Part shown: one piece after another, positions 1 through 14,826 of the stretch
How positions within the stretch are numbered: the first letter of the stretch is position 1
How the letters are laid out: each line of letters begins with the position of its first letter
Origin: Nitrospirota bacterium
GTDB lineage: Bacteria > Nitrospirota > Nitrospiria > Nitrospirales > Nitrospiraceae
DNA: 64,000 nucleotides
Direction of reading: 5' to 3'
Assembly (NCBI GenBank): GCA_040757595.1
Contig: JBFLWP010000001.1
Location: 269,171-333,170 of the forward strand
Notes under the pieces: generated by a model
Database searches by the model: none
Told to the model about the DNA's origin: nothing
Seen by the model: only the letters and a program-made list of their open reading frames with translations
Translations under genes and position numbers: made by a program

Positions 1-546
1 GGCTTCAATGGGGCCACGGCATCGCTGCCGTGGAATCGCCCGGCCGGCGGAACGAGCTGGCGATTTTCACGGTCGCTTCAATGGGGCCACGGCATCGCTG
101 CCGTGGAATCCGTGATGGACGACGAGATCATGAACGGGGACGGCGCGCTTCAATGGGGCCACGGCATCGCTGCCGTGGAATCCAGGGGGCCGCCTGAGTG
201 GGCCGCGGGGGAGCCACGCAGCTTCAATGGGGCCACGGCATCGCTGCCGTGGAATCGAAGGCCGCCCAGCTCGGCTTGACGCAAGCGGGCGTGCTTCAAT
301 GGGGCCACGGCATCGCTGCCGTGGAATCGGGATTCGTGCAGGCCGGCCTGACGCTCTGGGTCGAGCTTCAATGGGGCCACGGCATCGCTGCCGTGGAATC
401 TGTGAGCGGGCAGCTGGACGTGGACCCCGGCGTGAAGCTTCAATGGGGCCACGGCATCGCTGCCGTGGAATCGACGACCACCCCGTCCGTCATGGCCGCG
501 CCTCCAGATGGCTTCAATGGGGCCACGGCATCGCTGCCGTGGAATC
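1..546 (-). CRISPR. CRISPR array, 8 repeats and 7 spacers, cut by the window start
   Basis: Eight identical 36-bp repeats start at 2, 75, 147, 221, 293, 365, 437 and 511. Spacers are 36-38 bp. On the plus strand each repeat begins GCTTCAATGGGG and ends GCCGTGGAATC; on the minus strand it ends ATTGAAGC, the usual form of a repeat 3' end. The minus-strand repeat contains CCACGGCA-GCGA-TGCCGTGG, a perfect 8-bp stem closed by a GNRA-type tetraloop. This orientation matches the cas operon, so the array is probably transcribed leftward from a leader at 547-754 and processed at the hairpin by the Cas6-like part of Csb2. The array probably continues beyond position 1, because no degenerate terminal repeat is seen. 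Confidence 0.97.
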
Positions 547-4389: not shown

Positions 4390-6938
<2,549 letters not shown>

Positions 6939-9119
6939 TTAGCCTTTCGTTGCAGATTCGATTGGAACTCCTTGTTCCGATGGCTTGAGAATGTCTGCGG
7001 CCAGGCGCAGTTCGTCCCGCTTCGAAATGGGGAACAACACCGCTGCAGCAATCCGACGCGTGACCGTCGGTGGCTCCACAACGACTTCCACCATCGGGAT
7101 GAACCCACACCCGCGCAAGAGCTGAATGGCTAGACGAGAAGCTTCACCAGCCTGTCCCATGGCTGCACGCCCGAGGATAGCGGGAATGTAGGGAATCACC
7201 ACGTCCCTCAGCGCGCCTGGAAGGTGAGTCAGTTTCAGGAGCGCGTAGAGTGCGGGTAACGGAACCTCGTTCGTGTCCGATGTCGAAGGCTGAGTTTGAA
7301 CATAATCCCAATTGACCAAACTCAGCCCACGCAGAAGCGCCTCCAACCGCTGTTCGTCCACTCTGCCAGCAATGAACTCGTGGACATCACTAAGCGCGGC
7401 GGGATACCGTCCTCTTAACGGCAGGCCTTTTTGTTCTTCTCGCTGCGCATCCAGACACCGCCTCGACAAGACAGCGATCAAGTTATTCGTGAGCGAACCG
7501 TGCCCCCATACTACGCGGGGATGGGTCTCGGCCTCCAGCCATGTGACGTATCCCGCTCTGACCTCAATGGGCTCCATGTTTTCGCGGATACCGACCGAGG
7601 CCAATGACGCGGCCAGACGGAATTCCGGGCTTTCGTCGTTCGCGACATCTAGCCAGCGCGGTGACAGTAATGGTACGGGTCTCAAGAAATGCTTCTGGCG
7701 AAATTTGGGAGTCTTTGCCGAAGCCGCTTCCGCTTCACCGAGGGCGATCAGAACATTGGCCATCCTGAGCGCGCCTCCGGCTTGGCAATACTCCATGATC
7801 GCTCGCTCGATATTCCTTAAAGCCTCTCCCATTCGCGCAGGGGCGGTGTTCCCCGTAGCGGCTCGGCGAAATTGCATCAACCACCGGTCGAGTTCGTTCA
7901 GAAGGTTCACTTCTGGGCGCGGCCCTACTATCCACCGGCCAATTCCGGTTGCATAGAAATTCTTGCCGTTACGTTGCAAGAAGCCGTACCGGTGAAACAT
8001 CTGAACTCCGCGGTCTGTCCCCAGCGATGCCACTGCACGAGCAAAGTCCACACCGTTGCTGGCCTGTCTTCGGCCAATCTGTGCCCTCCCTTCGGAGAAA
8101 AGACTCGTCACCTCTATGAACCGCGTGGGAGCCGACCAAAGAGGTACCCATACTTCCCCCCGCGGATTGTCACCACTTTCGCTTGAACTCCCATATCCCA
8201 CCGGTGTCGCCCGCGTCGTGAAAGGGTAGCTGAGCTCTCCCGGTCCACTGAGGCATAAACGCTTGGTAGCCGCCGCAGCGAAGACAAGAGCACCTTCCAT
8301 CATGAGAACGAAGTCCCACGGATTGATCAGTGAATCCACCTCGAAGCCAGGGCCTGCATTAGTTCCCCCGGACGCCGCAGGATCAAACTGACCGATTGCC
8401 GCCCCCTTCTTAAGGCCCTTCACCGGAATACCGAGCAACGCCCCCTGCAACCATGCAGAAGCGTGGTTGGATGGCATTCCCGTGGCCCCTTCAACCAAAT
8501 CCAGTAACCTCTGCATAAAATTACTTGAGAAGTCCGTGTTGCCATCATTGCCCCCAGTTCCCAAGAGCGGTGGGTACTTTGGTTTCTGATCTGTGAGCAA
8601 AAAGACCGCGTCCAACCAATGGACTGCCATATCCGGCAACTGGCCGCGAAGCTCTCGCATCAAGGATTCTTTTTCTTCATCGCCCGGCGCTTCCTGATAG
8701 TTTCTCGATTGTAAAATCGAGCGTACTCGCTGGATCACCTGACGGTAGTCAGCGAGGCGATCAGTTGTTGATTTTGCCACTACATCTACAATTCGAGTCG
8801 CAGCCGTCGGCTGATTACGAACACCGGTCTTCTTACGCTTTCCTGTTACAGGGTCTTTTTCCTTGAGCTTTTCTTCTTGATAGTAAAATCCACTACCTCC
8901 GTTCCACGGGGCAACAATCGGCGTCGGGCGATAGTTCACCAGAAAGAACTTCTCCAGTTCTTCGCGCGTCAGTTTCGTCCGGAGCCAGAACACATCCTCT
9001 GCCCACCATCCCCTGGCTTCTGTATCAACCTGCTCGCTGACTAGGCGTAGAACCCCGAGCGCTTTCAGATAGTGGGCCAATGGCTCGGGCCGGCAGCCCT
9101 CAAGCCTCAGATCAGGCAT
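6939..9119 (-). CDS. csx17: Type I-G large subunit Csx17 (Cas8-like)
   Basis: This protein has 726 residues from the ATG at 9119 (MPDLRLEGCRPEPLAHYLKALGVLRLVSEQ). That opening, the GCxPxPLxxYLKALGVLRLV motif, is diagnostic of Csx17. In type I-G the protein is the presumed large subunit for PAM recognition and Cas3 recruitment. A GNGGTGGND-like element (GTGGNDGNTDFSSNFMQRL) and NPWDFVLMMEGALVFAAAATKR in the middle also match the family. It overlaps the cas3 3' end by 8 bp. An upstream in-frame ATG at 9146 would only add residues lying inside cas3, so it is not favoured. Confidence 0.92.
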   Translation of the reverse strand: MPDLRLEGCRPEPLAHYLKALGVLRLVSEQVDTEARGWWAEDVFWLRTKLTREELEKFFLVNYRPTPIVAPWNGGSGFYYQEEKLKEKDPVTGKRKKTGVRNQPTAATRIVDVVAKSTTDRLADYRQVIQRVRSILQSRNYQEAPGDEEKESLMRELRGQLPDMAVHWLDAVFLLTDQKPKYPPLLGTGGNDGNTDFSSNFMQRLLDLVEGATGMPSNHASAWLQGALLGIPVKGLKKGAAIGQFDPAASGGTNAGPGFEVDSLINPWDFVLMMEGALVFAAAATKRLCLSGPGELSYPFTTRATPVGYGSSSESGDNPRGEVWVPLWSAPTRFIEVTSLFSEGRAQIGRRQASNGVDFARAVASLGTDRGVQMFHRYGFLQRNGKNFYATGIGRWIVGPRPEVNLLNELDRWLMQFRRAATGNTAPARMGEALRNIERAIMEYCQAGGALRMANVLIALGEAEAASAKTPKFRQKHFLRPVPLLSPRWLDVANDESPEFRLAASLASVGIRENMEPIEVRAGYVTWLEAETHPRVVWGHGSLTNNLIAVLSRRCLDAQREEQKGLPLRGRYPAALSDVHEFIAGRVDEQRLEALLRGLSLVNWDYVQTQPSTSDTNEVPLPALYALLKLTHLPGALRDVVIPYIPAILGRAAMGQAGEASRLAIQLLRGCGFIPMVEVVVEPPTVTRRIAAAVLFPISKRDELRLAADILKPSEQGVPIESATKG

Positions 9120-11631
9120 GACCGTCTCCTTCTTTCTCTGTCCCACGCCAGTCCGCCACGCGCACCAGACTCTCCATCCAGGCCAACCGGAATGGCCCGT
9201 GTTGTTCGCGAAGCCGGAGCATCCGCTCCAACCAACTCGGACCGTGCGGGCCTTCGCCCATCTCCATGAAACTCAGGGTGAGAACCAGCGGCTGGGTCAT
9301 GATGCCGTCTTTAAGATCAACGGCGGGTAGTTCATCTCCTTCCCATACCCCACGGGCAAACCGGCGACCGTCCGGGGGCATCTCCTCATCCGGTAATGAT
9401 CGAATCGAAAGCCGAACTTTTCCATGATGTGCCGCGGCCAAATAAGCGGCAAGGTCTGATTCCTTGTGGAGTAAGAGCCCCAGGGCCGACGCGAGTTCAT
9501 GCCGAAAATGCTTGCGATCGCAATGGCTGCTTCTGTGATCGGACTTGGCCCATGGACCATCCGTTCTCTTCGGATCAGCAGCAGCCAATGGCGCAAGTAG
9601 CATCTTTTGGAAGACGGGATGCGCCTTTCCAAGATCGTGCCAGCGAGCGGCCGTCAGCAAATCGTTCCAGGGAATCCCGCGCTCTGGATGATCCAGCGCC
9701 GTTTTGAGTTTTGCCATTTCCTGAGCCACGTCCTTTGAGTGCTCGGATAAGAGCACAAAACGCTTGATGAACGTGAACTGGTCCTCGTCAATCGCGTCGT
9801 TAGAAGGTAGCTCGGCCGGAAGCGGGACCGGGGATACGTGGTCTTCAGGGTTTCCAGTCCAGCCGAGGTCCTCGCTATAGCCTCCTTCAGAGATGTGCAG
9901 AAGGATCGTCAGTCCCGGCCAGACATGCTCCTTGGTCACTTGAACCCATTGGCGGTCCAAGCCATCCCATCTGTAGGCACGAACGTCTTTCTTCAGGAAT
10001 TCTTTGAATCGGCCTATTCCGACCGGGCATAACTCGTCGGGACGTGGTGCAGGTGCGTCTATCGGCGGCTGTTCTCCCTCCCACTCACGCCAATACACCT
10101 GCGCATCCGTATCTCTCCCGTCACGGATGTACCGTGATACGTCAATGTCGTTTCCGGCGAGATCGGGCGTTGTGTCAAACAAGTCGAGGGCATCGCGGCG
10201 GCGGAGCACGTGCCCGTACTTCTCTCTTTCAGGCGCTCTGATCTTGGACACTGTGGCTGGACCGACGTCGTTCAGTTTGGTCAATTGCCCACGTGACCAA
10301 TTCAGCTCCTCAAGTTCATAAGGCAAAGCGGCCTGGGGAGACGGTTCCTGTTCCCCCTTCTTGTTGACCGACGACGTTTCTACATCAATCCAGAACACGT
10401 TGGCTGGTTCGTCTTTTTGCCACTCCCCATACCGATTGCAGCGCCCGAACCGCTGGACAAGCGACGACCAAGGTGCCAGCTCAGTGAAGAGGGTTCGCGC
10501 TGAGATGTCCACACCGGCTTCAATCGCTTGGGTGGCCACCACAATTCGGTCTTGGGCCGGTTTCTCTTTTAGGGCTTGATCGAAACGTTTGCGTTCTGTG
10601 TGTCGAAACCGAGAATGAATGAGGCACAGATCGGGTTGGGGTTTCGCACCCTTGAACTTGTGCTGCAACGCCTTGAACACGCTTTGGGCACGGCCCACAC
10701 GATTCACAATCACCAACGTCAGCGCACCTTCTTGATGCTGGTGACACACTTCCTCGGCCAACTCTTCGGCATAAGTGTCTTCACTCTCCTGCGTCCACTT
10801 CGTGAGAGCCCTACGTAAGGACTTCTTGGCATTCACACGCTTCTCAATATCAGCATGCCGGGTGTCATCGCGGCTCAAGGAAAGGCTTGGAAGAGCCTTT
10901 GCTTGTTCGGCAAAATCGACTGTGGCGAGAGCTTCGGTTTTCAACGTGGCTGACATCCACACAGACTTCGCTGGGCCGCACGTGCCAAATCGCTCGCGGA
11001 AGGCCTGTAACTGAGCAGTAGTGGCGAGCCCGACTCCCATCAACTGGACCTCATCCATAACCCACAGGCAATCGTTATTTAACAGGCCATAGTGCATCGG
11101 CCATCGGTACCGGCTCATCGCATAGCCGCGGTTCAACGCGCGTGAAAGCAATTGATCTTGCGTGCCGATCAAGACCGCATCGCCCTCAGGATACGTATCC
11201 CAGTCGTTGTCAATCTCTCCACCCATGAGGATATGCACACCTGGTGGGCGAGCCATTTCTTGGGGATAATGCTTCCCAAGTTCAGCGATCCACTGCTTTG
11301 CTTCCCTGACTGTCTGCTCTACCAGCACCCGCATCGGCAAGCAGTACACCAGCCGGCGCGGTGTTGCTTGGCGGATCGCGTTGTCAGGATGAAACCGCCG
11401 CCGCCACAGCCACCCCAGCACCGCCATCGCGGTCTTGCCGAGGCCGGTGGGCACATCCACTAAGAGACCCGCACCGCTCCGTGCCCCCTCACCCGCACCC
11501 TCTCCCACAAGGGGCGAGGGTCTTGAAAACAGCGTCGGGGCGCAGGCGAAGCGGACCTGAAACGGATACGGGTCATGCCCCGTGGCCTGTTGAAACCAGT
11601 GCCTAAACTGTCTGTTGGTGTCGTTGTCCAT
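9112..11631 (-). CDS. cas3: CRISPR helicase-nuclease Cas3, helicase first, HD at the C-terminus
   Basis: The protein has 839 residues from the ATG at 11631. The order is SF2 helicase (HDPYPFQ near residue 20, Walker A PTGLGKT 61-67, Walker B/DEVQ in WVMDEVQLMG, motif VI-like SLVQRFGRCNRYG), then a C-terminal HD nuclease: WHDLGKAHPVFQ at about 663, HRSSHCD, AAHHGK. C-terminal HD is characteristic of type I-G Cas3. Residues 37-53 (RPSPLVGEGAGEGARSG), between the Q-motif and Walker A, are encoded by a palindromic intergenic-type repeat and look like an in-frame insertion. I prefer the start at 11631 over the in-frame ATG at 11661 because the diverged copy at 12455 begins at the equivalent codon and 11661 would overlap the ORF6N gene. 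Confidence 0.94.
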   Translation of the reverse strand: MDNDTNRQFRHWFQQATGHDPYPFQVRFACAPTLFSRPSPLVGEGAGEGARSGAGLLVDVPTGLGKTAMAVLGWLWRRRFHPDNAIRQATPRRLVYCLPMRVLVEQTVREAKQWIAELGKHYPQEMARPPGVHILMGGEIDNDWDTYPEGDAVLIGTQDQLLSRALNRGYAMSRYRWPMHYGLLNNDCLWVMDEVQLMGVGLATTAQLQAFRERFGTCGPAKSVWMSATLKTEALATVDFAEQAKALPSLSLSRDDTRHADIEKRVNAKKSLRRALTKWTQESEDTYAEELAEEVCHQHQEGALTLVIVNRVGRAQSVFKALQHKFKGAKPQPDLCLIHSRFRHTERKRFDQALKEKPAQDRIVVATQAIEAGVDISARTLFTELAPWSSLVQRFGRCNRYGEWQKDEPANVFWIDVETSSVNKKGEQEPSPQAALPYELEELNWSRGQLTKLNDVGPATVSKIRAPEREKYGHVLRRRDALDLFDTTPDLAGNDIDVSRYIRDGRDTDAQVYWREWEGEQPPIDAPAPRPDELCPVGIGRFKEFLKKDVRAYRWDGLDRQWVQVTKEHVWPGLTILLHISEGGYSEDLGWTGNPEDHVSPVPLPAELPSNDAIDEDQFTFIKRFVLLSEHSKDVAQEMAKLKTALDHPERGIPWNDLLTAARWHDLGKAHPVFQKMLLAPLAAADPKRTDGPWAKSDHRSSHCDRKHFRHELASALGLLLHKESDLAAYLAAAHHGKVRLSIRSLPDEEMPPDGRRFARGVWEGDELPAVDLKDGIMTQPLVLTLSFMEMGEGPHGPSWLERMLRLREQHGPFRLAWMESLVRVADWRGTEKEGDGHA
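11473..11523. repeat. Palindromic repeat read in frame inside cas3, copy 2
   Basis: The plus strand reads CCCTCACCCGCACCCTCTCCC, a short loop, then GGGGCGAGGG: the same family as the element after the Uma2 gene and the one at 13600-13683. In the cas3 frame it adds 17 residues (37-53) rich in Gly, Glu, Ala and Pro, directly before the Walker A motif. The reading frame stays open through it, so the helicase probably tolerates it as a surface loop. Confidence 0.75.
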
Positions 11632-11644
11632 TGCCCCCGCTCGC

Positions 11645-12205
11645 TTATCTCCGTCCTGCACTCGATGGGCGAGCCGACCCGGCCTTCACGTCGAACCCGA
11701 TCCGCCGTCCCGGCTGGGCCGGCTGGCTCATCTGTTGACGAATGGCCTCGACTGGGGAACGAATATGTCCATCATGGCTTTCGACCTTCCGTTCAAGTTC
11801 TGCGAGCTTGTCGGCCAACTCTTTGTTCGCAGCAACCATTGCGCGCAGTTTCACAAAGGCGCGCATAATTGCGATGTTAACCTGGATGGCACGGCGGCTC
11901 CTGAGGACGCTTGATAACATCACGACGCCATGCTCAGTGAAAGCATAGGGAGCAGCGCGACGCGCCCCGCCCCAACTTGAAGTCACAACTTGTGGCTTCA
12001 AGTCTCTAACCTCCTGAAAAGTCAGCTGAAACATAAAGTCGCCGGGAAATCGCTCGACATTCCGTTTGACGGCTTGGACGAGCACCTTGGGTGCAACCCC
12101 GTACAGTTCAGCCAAGTCCGTGCTGAGCATGACTTTGTGCCCACGGATCAGGAAAATCCGCCGCTCGACCTTTTCCTGGACCACCAAGGCTCGGTCACGC
12201 CTCAT
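11645..12205 (-). CDS. ORF6N-domain (phage-type) DNA-binding protein
   Basis: This 186-residue protein contains the ORF6N signature RRIFLIRGHKVMLSTDLAELYGV, AVKRNVERFPGDFMFQLT and YAFTEHGVVMLSSVLRSRRA, followed by a helical region (VKLRAMVAANKELADKLAELERKVE) and a basic tail. ORF6N/KilA-N domains are found in phage antirepressors and in mobile elements. The gene ends 14 bp before the cas3 start and begins 17 bp past the end of a truncated cas3 fragment, so it lies between two copies of the cas3 5' end. It could control the effector operon or simply be cargo; the sequence does not decide. Confidence 0.88.
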   Translation of the reverse strand: MRRDRALVVQEKVERRIFLIRGHKVMLSTDLAELYGVAPKVLVQAVKRNVERFPGDFMFQLTFQEVRDLKPQVVTSSWGGARRAAPYAFTEHGVVMLSSVLRSRRAIQVNIAIMRAFVKLRAMVAANKELADKLAELERKVESHDGHIRSPVEAIRQQMSQPAQPGRRIGFDVKAGSARPSSAGRR

Positions 12206-12619: not shown

Positions 12620-12874
12620 ATGAAAACCAAGATCGTCCGCATCGGGAACTCTCGCGGCATCCGCATTCCGAAATCGCTGCTCCATCAGTGTCATCTCGAC
12701 GGTCCCGTGGAAGTCGAGGTCCAGGGGAGCCAGTTGGTCGTGCGTTCAGCCTCACGGCCCCGCAGCGGCTGGGACGACGCCTTCCGCGCCATGCACCAGA
12801 CCGGAGACGACCAATTCCTGGACCACGGGCGTATGTCCCCCTCTCGATGGGATCGAGAGGACTGGCGGTGGTAG
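12620..12874 (+). CDS. mazE: MazE-like antitoxin (AbrB/SpoVT fold)
   Basis: This 84-residue protein starts MKTKIVRIGNSRGIRIPKSLL, a swapped-hairpin AbrB DNA-binding domain, followed by VEVEVQGSQLVVRS. The acidic and aromatic tail (WDDAFRAMHQTGDDQFLDH, ending WDREDWRW) is the likely toxin-wrapping segment. Its stop overlaps the GTG start of the toxin gene by 7 bp, the typical antitoxin-first layout. Confidence 0.9.
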   Translation: MKTKIVRIGNSRGIRIPKSLLHQCHLDGPVEVEVQGSQLVVRSASRPRSGWDDAFRAMHQTGDDQFLDHGRMSPSRWDREDWRW

Positions 12875-13191
12875 CCCGTCGCTTCGACGTCTACCTCGTT
12901 CGCCTCGATCCCACGGAAGGACGGGAGATCAGAAAGACTCGCCCCTGCCTGGTGATTTCTCCCGATGAAATGAATCGCCACATTGATACGGTCATCGTCG
13001 CACCGATGACGACGAAGAGCCGACCCTACCCCACTCGCGTACCTGTTCGTTTCCGGCGCAAGACCGGGCAAATCGTCCTGGATCAACTCCGCACGGTGGA
13101 CAAAACCCGCTTGGTCAAACGCCTGGGCACGATCGACCAAGCCACGGCCGACCGCGTACTGGCACTCCTTGCAGAACTGTTCGCTCCGTAG
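12868..13191 (+). CDS. mazF: MazF-like mRNA interferase toxin
   Basis: This 107-residue protein from GTG at 12868 has the MazF/PemK core: RFDVYLVRLDPTEGREIRKTRP, CLVISPDEMNRHIDTVIVAPMT, and a late strand GQIVLDQLRTVDKTRLVKRLG. MazF toxins cut mRNA at short sequence motifs; RKTRPCLVIS and DQLRTVDK carry the conserved Arg and Thr/Ser region of the active site. It overlaps mazE by 7 bp. A longer open frame runs upstream from 12688, but it only reads through mazE in another frame, so the GTG start is preferred. Confidence 0.9.
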   Translation: MVARRFDVYLVRLDPTEGREIRKTRPCLVISPDEMNRHIDTVIVAPMTTKSRPYPTRVPVRFRRKTGQIVLDQLRTVDKTRLVKRLGTIDQATADRVLALLAELFAP

Positions 13192-13211: not shown

Positions 13212-13565
13212 TTATCTCCTTCGGCCACTCCCCCCGTCCAGCGGCGCGAACGGCACGTCGGGATTGTAGCGGTTGATGGGGTTCAGGGGATTGTCCGGGC
13301 GATATTCGTTGATCGGGTTGAAGGGGTTGTTCGGGTTGTAGCGATTGATCGGGTTGGCGGGATTGCCCGGGTCATACCGGTTGATCGGGGTGAAGGGGTT
13401 CCGCGGGTCCACCGCGTTGATCGGGTTCAGCGGATTGTCTGGCCGCAGCTCGGTGATCGGGTTGAAGATGTTATAGTCTCGTTCGTACTTGGAATCGAAC
13501 CCCGTCTCAGCCCAGGCCGCCGCGCTCCAGAGCATCAGTACCACCACGAGACCGTTGATCCGCAT
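13212..13565 (-). CDS. Exported protein of six 12-residue Asn-Pro repeats
   Basis: This 117-residue protein has a signal peptide (MRINGLVVVLMLWSAAAWA) followed by tandem 12-residue units. The units begin at residues 39, 51, 63, 75, 87 and 99, with pattern x-[YLV]-x-P-x-N-P-x-N-P-I-N, as in RYNPNNPFNPIN. A half unit (YNIFNPIT) precedes them and a GGSGRRR tail follows. I know no named family with this unit. Regular Asn-Pro turns suggest an extended or solenoid-like periplasmic or surface protein. The ATG at 13565 is preferred, with AGGAGGTTGCC before it, over an upstream ATG inside a repeat tract. Confidence in the gene is good; the function is unknown. Confidence 0.75.
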   Translation of the reverse strand: MRINGLVVVLMLWSAAAWAETGFDSKYERDYNIFNPITELRPDNPLNPINAVDPRNPFTPINRYDPGNPANPINRYNPNNPFNPINEYRPDNPLNPINRYNPDVPFAPLDGGSGRRR

Positions 13566-13683: not shown

Positions 13684-13842
13684 GCGATCAAAGGAGCTTT
13701 TTACGGAAGCATCGTAGCAAGGGACTGTGACATCGCAGGTCCTATCGTAAAAAAATGCCTCAGCGCCTCGATTCTCTTTGTGAACCAAGCACTTCCGCAC
13801 TCAATCGTCGGACAAGCCAACCGGAGCTCGTGACAACCGAGG

Positions 13843-14826
13843 TCACGTTCGACCAAGAATCTTCCTGGCTTCTTCTTCAACCGTCTTCCGGAGACTCTCA
13901 GGCTGGACCACTCGGACACCGGCTCCGAAGCTCAAGACCCATCCCAGCAACTCGCGCGTGTCGGCGACGGTCAGGGTCATGCGGAGCCCGCCGCCTTTGA
14001 GCCGCGTGAGCTTCTGACTCGAGTGCCAGATCCGGTCTTTGGCCCAGGCCGCGGTGGTCTTGTCGAAGAGGAGTTCCACCTCAATGCGCTTTCCCCGCAT
14101 CACGACCAACGCATCCTCCACGTAGGCGTCCACGTTGAAGTGCAACGGCATCTGATACGGGTGGTCGGTCAGCGTGAGCGCCTTGACCCGCTCGACGGCG
14201 AACATCCTGACATCCTTTCGCCAGTGGCAATACCCAATCAGATACAACGCGCCGTCCACGTACCGGAGACAGTACGGGTCCACCTCTCGACGTCTGGTTT
14301 CATTCCGAGACGCCGAGTAGTAGCGCATCTGCACGGTCCGTTTCTGCGTCGCGGCTCGGGTGAGCGCATCAATGGTGTCCCGGTGCTGCCTGTAGCTCTT
14401 GTGCGGGCCGAGGCCCACGGAGAAGGCGCTCTGAAGTTGTTGCACAAAGGTCATCGCGTGCGGGGAAATGCGGGCTGACACCTTGGCGAGGGCCGAATTC
14501 AGGGCGCTTTGCACCTCGGTTCCCTGCAGCGGCGTCAGCAAGTGCCGGCTGAAGGCCAGAGCCATCAGCTCGGTGGGAGCAAACGCGAGCGCCGGAACGT
14601 TCCGAAATTCCTCCATGAGGCGCCACCGGACCTGCCCGTCAACGCGCTCGGCGAGGAGGGGAAACTTGACCGTCAGGGCTTCCAGATCCCGGCGGATGGT
14701 GCGCGCATGCCGGGCATACTCCGACGGGAGCCTTTCCTGTAACTGCTCAAGCGTGAGACCGCGCTGGGAAGCCTGAAGATGCTGGAGCAGGTGCCACTGG
14801 CGGATGACTTGGTCGTTACGGGGCAT
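13843..14826 (-). CDS. WYL-domain transcriptional regulator
   Basis: This 327-residue protein has an N-terminal helix-turn-helix ([26 protein letters not shown], then [16 protein letters not shown]) and a WYL domain from about 145 ([36 protein letters not shown], then FAVERVKAL). A C-terminal extension ([29 protein letters not shown]) follows. WYL regulators bind nucleic-acid-like ligands and frequently control CRISPR, BREX and other defence operons. Its place at the edge of the cas/TA island suggests control of nearby defence genes, which is inference. Confidence 0.9.

Follow-up and report, generated by a model that had tools for sequence, protein, structure and literature searches.

A predicted exported Asn-Pro repeat protein of Nitrospirota as a probable member of a WYL-linked defence regulon

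As described so far, WYL-domain regulators linked to anti-phage defence act locally, on the island in which they are encoded. CapW, the WYL regulator of CBASS, is a repressor. BrxR, which accompanies BREX systems, is a repressor as well, and binds inverted repeats (PMC9122601). DriD of Caulobacter is a WYL-domain activator that is triggered by single-stranded DNA (ssDNA); it activates DNA-repair and cell-death genes, and its consensus site, ATACGAC-N7-GTCGTAT, overlaps the -35 region and lies at a fixed distance from a weak -10 (PMC12340889). PafBC, the mycobacterial DNA-damage activator, is a heterodimer that reads one half-site, and its promoters have the form tTGTCRgtg-8nt-TannnT (PMC5656591). 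The PafB residues R181, Y196, R204 and R208 are needed for ssDNA binding (PMC11804915).

The current study concerns a 64,000-nucleotide stretch of a Nitrospirota genome (contig JBFLWP010000001.1), here called the window, which contains a small gene for an Asn-Pro repeat protein (NP gene; Table 1). The initial annotation had covered the protein itself, but it missed the WYL regulator gene upstream, the operator, and the CRISPR-Cas or restriction-modification operons that lie downstream of such genes; this context is the best guide to NP function. The operon in the window is of type I-G, as Cas3g, Cas8g/Csx17, Cas7g/Csb1 and Cas5/6g/Csb2 were all recognised (E 1e-49 to 1e-280) together with an array. 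It was also observed that a REP-like sequence, SRPSPLVGEGAGEGARSGAG, appears to be inserted in frame into cas3, immediately ahead of the Walker A motif, and that similar REP-like DNA occurs elsewhere in the region. A literature search combining Nitrospira, WYL and CRISPR found no relevant paper.

Table 1. Features at and around the NP-repeat gene (positions in the window)
Feature	Position	Strand	Remarks
CRISPR array	2..546	-	Eight repeats, each about 36 nt long, at intervals of 72-74 nt; Rfam CRISPR-DR16
cas5/6g (Csb2)	4393..5970	-	Stop-to-stop limits
cas7g (Csb1)	5958..6938	-	Stop-to-stop limits
cas8g (Csx17)	6939..9146	-	PADLOC assignment
cas3, type I-G CRISPR-Cas	9112..11661	-	PADLOC assignment
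ORF6N-domain protein	11645..12205	-	Immediately ahead of cas3; L023, L033 and L035 have relatives too
MazE-like antitoxin	12620..12874	+	Pfam score just under cut-off
PemK/MazF-type toxin gene	12688..13191	+	Between NP gene and cas operon, opposite strand
NP-repeat gene	13212..13565	-	ATG start, open frame of 117 codons, 117-aa exported-type product
-10-like box TACGAT (TAnnnT)	13711..13716	-	Fixed distance after proximal operator
Proximal operator AGGACCTGCGATGTCAC	13727..13743	-	Profile score 20.7 including its -10
Distal operator GTGACCTCGGTTGTCAC	13830..13846	-	Score 26.4; first bases contain WYL stop codon
HTH-WYL-WCX transcription regulator	13843..14826	-	327 aa; directly upstream of NP gene

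The NP-repeat protein consists of a signal peptide, a conserved head, six Asn-Pro-rich units of 12 residues and a basic tail (LDGGSGRRR). Its N-terminus, MRINGLVVVLMLWSAAAWA, has the form of a clean signal peptide with an AxA cleavage site and no lipobox, and is followed by the head, ETGFDSKYERDYNIFNP; no anchor was found in the protein. The signal-peptide sequence thus predicts export, in agreement with the secretion proposed earlier. The six 12-residue repeats were likewise recovered; the frame is open over its whole length, and Tandem Repeats Finder detected a 36-nt period at 13272-13467; beneath the 12-residue units runs a triplet rhythm, NPx NPx Nxx xPx. The statement that the protein holds nothing beyond signal peptide, repeats and tail was right for these three parts, but it overlooked the head, whose 15 residues (GFDxKYERDYNIFNP) are nearly invariant among relatives. 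In a ten-sequence alignment each unit had its own consensus across species (DPGNPANP in unit 3, NPNNPFNP in unit 4 and PFAPL in unit 6), and because this position-specific consensus is kept between species, the repeats are fixed parts and not a fluctuating array.

Searches of Pfam (best matches Bflower, E 0.031, and Amelogenin, E 0.088), NCBIfam and the PDB sequences all gave no match above cut-off, so that the NP-repeat family, as judged by sequence, is undescribed, as the initial annotation had supposed. Matches to MucBP, collagen-like and tail-fibre proteins obtained by tblastn against plasmids and phages were rejected as relatives, because they reflected Asn-Pro composition only and the head motif was absent. 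MucBP-type adhesins and collagen-like phage tail proteins are rich in Asn-Pro like the NP protein, but they share less than 50% identity with it and are long multi-domain or anchored proteins. The AlphaFold2 model, built on a 45-sequence alignment, was of moderate confidence only (mean pLDDT 68, 72-82 in the array; pTM 0.44) and contained no strands, with a single short turn in each 12-residue unit, and Foldseek with this model found no similar fold in the PDB. An extended or beta-helical surface fibre, as first suggested, is therefore not supported by an array of about 73 residues that has a fixed length, no anchor, no predicted strands and no Foldseek match, and the strand-rich solenoid that such a fibre would be expected to form did not appear in the model. 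A turn-rich extended chain would be a better guess than a beta-helix.

Within the same bacterial family, 59 of 118 genomes contained an NP-repeat match at E<=1e-20; matches were also present in 12 of 41 near relatives and in 54 of 296 genomes of the phylum, where the best reached E 1e-50 to 1e-60. A scan of 84,980 species genomes yielded 45 loci, all but one of them titled Nitrospira or Nitrospirota, and the single outlying record is titled Nitrosospira and is perhaps mis-binned. Nitrospira moscoviensis has two copies, and no relatives were found among the IMG/VR viral contigs. As far as searched, the family appears to be limited to Nitrospirota. Median dN/dS over 429 codon-aligned pairs was 0.24 for the whole gene and 0.13 for the array (signal peptide 0.68, tail 0.65), and the array is thus under strong purifying selection. 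Strain-variable repeat number, which the initial annotation had suggested looking for, is ruled out for the main copies, as 65 of 83 copies have six units and measure exactly 73 residues from the head to PFAPL; the shorter arrays were mostly secondary, decayed or contig-cut copies.

The commonest neighbour of the NP genes is the HTH-WYL regulator; at 23 of the 46 loci first surveyed its gene immediately precedes the NP gene in the same orientation. CRISPR-Cas or restriction-modification operons follow on the same strand, their types varying by locus, and the NP stop codon can be as close as 100-200 bp to hsdM or cas3. The idea that all these genes share one chromosomal hot spot was considered and rejected, as the WYL-NP unit occurs in several different syntenic contexts. 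Tandem cassettes of operator and NP gene were seen at four loci (L194, L213, L148, L207), and four others (L030, L032, L149, L214) have a C-terminal piece of the NP gene immediately ahead of cas3; together they point to repeated recombination at the NP gene. A frame for a DUF6036/AbiEii-like nucleotidyltransferase recurs at six loci (L026, L027, L029, L031, L032, L050), where it directly follows the NP gene but lies on the opposite (minus) strand.

The operator was first found by side-by-side reading of the upstream regions and was then resolved into the palindrome GTGACCYYGGATGTCAC. The 13-mer GATGTCACRGTCC alone had been tried and gave too weak a signal in its own genome until the palindrome was recognised. 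Two copies lie between the WYL and NP genes of the window, 103 bp apart, and elsewhere two copies 99-107 bp apart are often present; the scores of the window copies (Table 1) compare with 7.7 for the best of five shuffled windows, and the left arm of the proximal copy is degenerate. For most clade A genes (see below) the operator is located 57-115 bp ahead of the NP start codon. At 72 sites the palindrome is followed, after 10 bp, by a TAnnnT box (T 0.82, A 0.90, T 0.90). A -35 hexamer was found in these sites at none of the usual spacings from this box. The layout is therefore GTGAC-N7-GTCAC, 10 bp, TAnnnT, that is, GTGACCYYGGATGTCAC-N10-TAnnnT.

Read as TGTCACRS-N8-TAnnnT, this layout has the same spacing as the mycobacterial PafBC promoter, which is of the form TGTCxxxx-N8-TAnnnT and likewise has no -35 element. 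The GAC-N7-GTC core with its seven-base spacer is that of the DriD consensus, which differs in the outer bases of the half-site (GTGAC in the Nitrospira operator, CGAC in the DriD site). By sequence, then, the putative operator-promoter has the geometry of PafBC promoters and the core of DriD sites.

The regulator itself shows the same relationships. The window protein matched Pfam WYL (2.4e-21) and WCX (2e-18), both above cut-off, has the order wHTH-WYL-WCX, and aligns end to end with DriD over residues 3-322; its top PDB sequence matches were PafBC (1.7e-19) and full-length DriD (2e-11). At the positions aligned with the ssDNA-binding R181, Y196, R204 and R208 of PafB, the residues R, Y, R and R were present in 34, 34, 34 and 33 of 34 orthologues, respectively (R180, Y195, R203 and R207 in the window protein); the positions were mapped via the fused PafBC of entry 6sj9, and the residue spacing equals that in PafB. 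Unlike the PafBC heterodimer, the single WYL gene and the full palindrome suggest a homodimer, and the target genes differ.

An orthologue of the WYL protein (57-100% identity) was single-copy in all 54 genomes possessing one. It was present in all 35 genomes with an exact operator versus 19 of the 83 others (Fisher 1.6e-16, a value that overstates independence since the genomes are related), and at least some of these 19 carry variant operators, as the genome of the window does. From this co-occurrence we infer that the WYL protein is the regulator that binds the palindrome, and by analogy it would be an ssDNA-dependent activator of the DriD/PafBC kind.

Across 118 Nitrospira-family genomes the exact palindrome was found at 71 sites, which are spread over 35 of the genomes; the reversed pattern, used as a control, was found at none. 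A defence ORF followed on the same strand within 6.5 kb downstream at 67 of the 71 sites (66 by a second route), a count in which families were assigned with PADLOC, some reference proteins had been taken from operator loci beforehand (each PADLOC-assigned independently), and the assignments of MkoA, HelII (type II helicase) and one HsdR (HsdR2) are weaker. No site had a defence ORF on the opposite strand (0 of 71), and none of 11 random control regions contained one. The systems behind the operator comprise CRISPR types I-B, I-C, I-E, I-G and II (Cas9), type I and type III restriction-modification, and also Hma (HmaA), Ssp-like (SspC) and Mokosh-like (MkoA-like) systems. For 33 of the 71 sites an NP gene or part of one was located no more than 700 bp away, and about half of the sites have no NP gene. 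Four exact sites lack a recognised defence operon (L229, L216, L225 and L232, the last cut by the contig end); at L229 the operator is followed by a 1208-aa AAA_27/SMC-like ATPase, which is a candidate unassigned defence system.

Like BrxR and CapW, the Nitrospira WYL protein lies beside anti-phage systems and is predicted to bind an inverted repeat. BrxR and CapW, however, repress the adjacent island. In Nitrospira a single regulator in each genome goes with operators spread over many defence loci, and the layout of the promoter speaks for activation. The predicted targets also differ from the repair and cell-death genes of DriD, as they are whole anti-phage systems and an exported repeat protein.

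In a tree of 63 NP proteins, clade A (50 proteins) was set apart from clade B (13). The operator was present for 48 of the 50 clade A genes versus none of the 13 in clade B, and for one of the two clade A exceptions (L035) a near-operator, ATGACCTCGGATGTCAC, lies some 0.8 kb upstream. Clade B genes are, as a rule, also without a defence operon, some of them occur in genomes without the WYL gene, and their neighbours (RadC, DUF72, fatty-acid isomerase, LapB-like) have no common theme. Since clade B shows the family outside the regulon, it may represent an older role outside defence, with the defence role possibly a later recruitment.

Because the clade A gene shares its operator-promoter with defence operons, the repeat protein is probably a secreted member of a defence regulon, one probably switched by ssDNA. 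The reading preferred here, to which we assign a probability of roughly 0.6, is that the NP gene encodes one output, an exported one, of a Nitrospira defence regulon switched on by the WYL protein and ssDNA, and that the product serves as the arm of this response at the envelope. The ssDNA, arising from phage attack, from restriction or from DNA damage, would bind the WYL domains; the WYL dimer would then bind the palindrome and bring RNA polymerase to promoters with an extended -10 and no -35, so that the defence operons and the NP-repeat protein would be turned on together. In the least certain step, the exported, turn-rich Asn-Pro protein would work at the cell surface or in the periplasm. 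Its simplest modes of action would be to hinder the adsorption of phage or the entry of DNA, or to limit re-infection and spread. Such envelope-level anti-phage action is guessed from the signal peptide and from membership in the regulon. Counting against this account are the clade B proteins, the roughly half of the exact operator sites that have no NP gene, the degenerate left arm of the proximal operator in the window, and the PemK/MazE pair, which on the other strand separates the NP gene of the window from cas3. The wider proposal, a genome-wide ssDNA-triggered immune regulon under one WYL activator, with an exported repeat protein (clade A or the NPF-repeat family described below) as a previously unknown envelope defence layer, is tentative, and we hold it well short of even odds.

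Whether the WYL protein activates or represses bears directly on this reading. A repressor of the BrxR/CapW kind, keeping defence operons and NP gene silent until released by a ligand, would agree with the best-studied defence-linked WYL regulators and with a palindrome that overlaps the region bound by RNA polymerase. Such promoters would nevertheless offer the polymerase no -35 hexamer at any usual spacing from TAnnnT, and activation by ssDNA is the favoured model because promoter geometry and half-site match PafBC and DriD, which are also the top PDB sequence matches of the protein; repression thus seems doubtful. The NP protein could also be an ordinary envelope or surface component that hitch-hikes in defence islands without a role in defence. 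Its head-plus-array build looks structural, clade B relatives occur without WYL gene, operator or defence operon, and 14 of the 59 NP-positive genomes lack the WYL gene; hitch-hiking is still unlikely, given that the promoters of nearly all clade A genes themselves contain the defence operator, that NP genes lie beside different defence systems in several chromosomal places, and that operator and NP gene were duplicated together as cassettes (L194, L213).

The same tandem cassettes, and the C-terminal fragments before cas3, would suit a gene that matters mainly as DNA, a repeated leader serving as a recombination handle for swapping defence cassettes, with its product secondary. A DNA handle would need neither the strong amino-acid constraint on the array nor a signal peptide kept throughout, and this explanation is considered improbable. 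The frame was also considered as an untranslated low-complexity artefact, in line with the simple Asn-Pro matches in unrelated MucBP, collagen-like and tail-fibre proteins. An array dN/dS of 0.13, together with the conserved start, signal peptide, head and shared length, contradicts such a reading and upholds the translation assumed in the initial annotation, so that an artefact can practically be discounted.

The shared defence promoter and its single candidate regulator are the larger finding: in a family of nitrifying bacteria, operons for many unrelated kinds of defence bear one conserved operator, which extends the known control of defence by WYL proteins. The operator can serve as a tool that predicts defence genes and points to unassigned candidates such as the ATPase at L229, and joint control of CRISPR and restriction by damage-type ssDNA sensing becomes directly testable. 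The presence of an exported repeat protein within the defence programme suggests an extracytoplasmic step that has not yet been looked for and, if true, would add a new layer of defence. Nitrospira are key organisms of nitrification, and their phage biology is little known.

A second, unrelated family of secreted Asn-Pro/Phe repeat proteins (NPFDxDSTSNPFG...SPFSPD), without a Pfam match, adjoins the WYL gene or operator in several genomes. It was found at L234 (some 866 bp beyond the operator at 2032), at G172 C1:21172 and G154 C35:25872, and in G170, G212 and G002, and it occupies the position held elsewhere by clade A NP genes. This points to an exported Asn-Pro protein as something that the regulon needs time and again, and not as an accident. 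A small Cys-rich protein, MAWNEETQIRCRFSFKCPRLW...VRHCHECDRDVY, was also observed to be conserved between the operator and CRISPR operons at 11 loci that have no NP gene (L135, L147, L196, L201, L204, L211, L212, L218, L227, L228 and L231).
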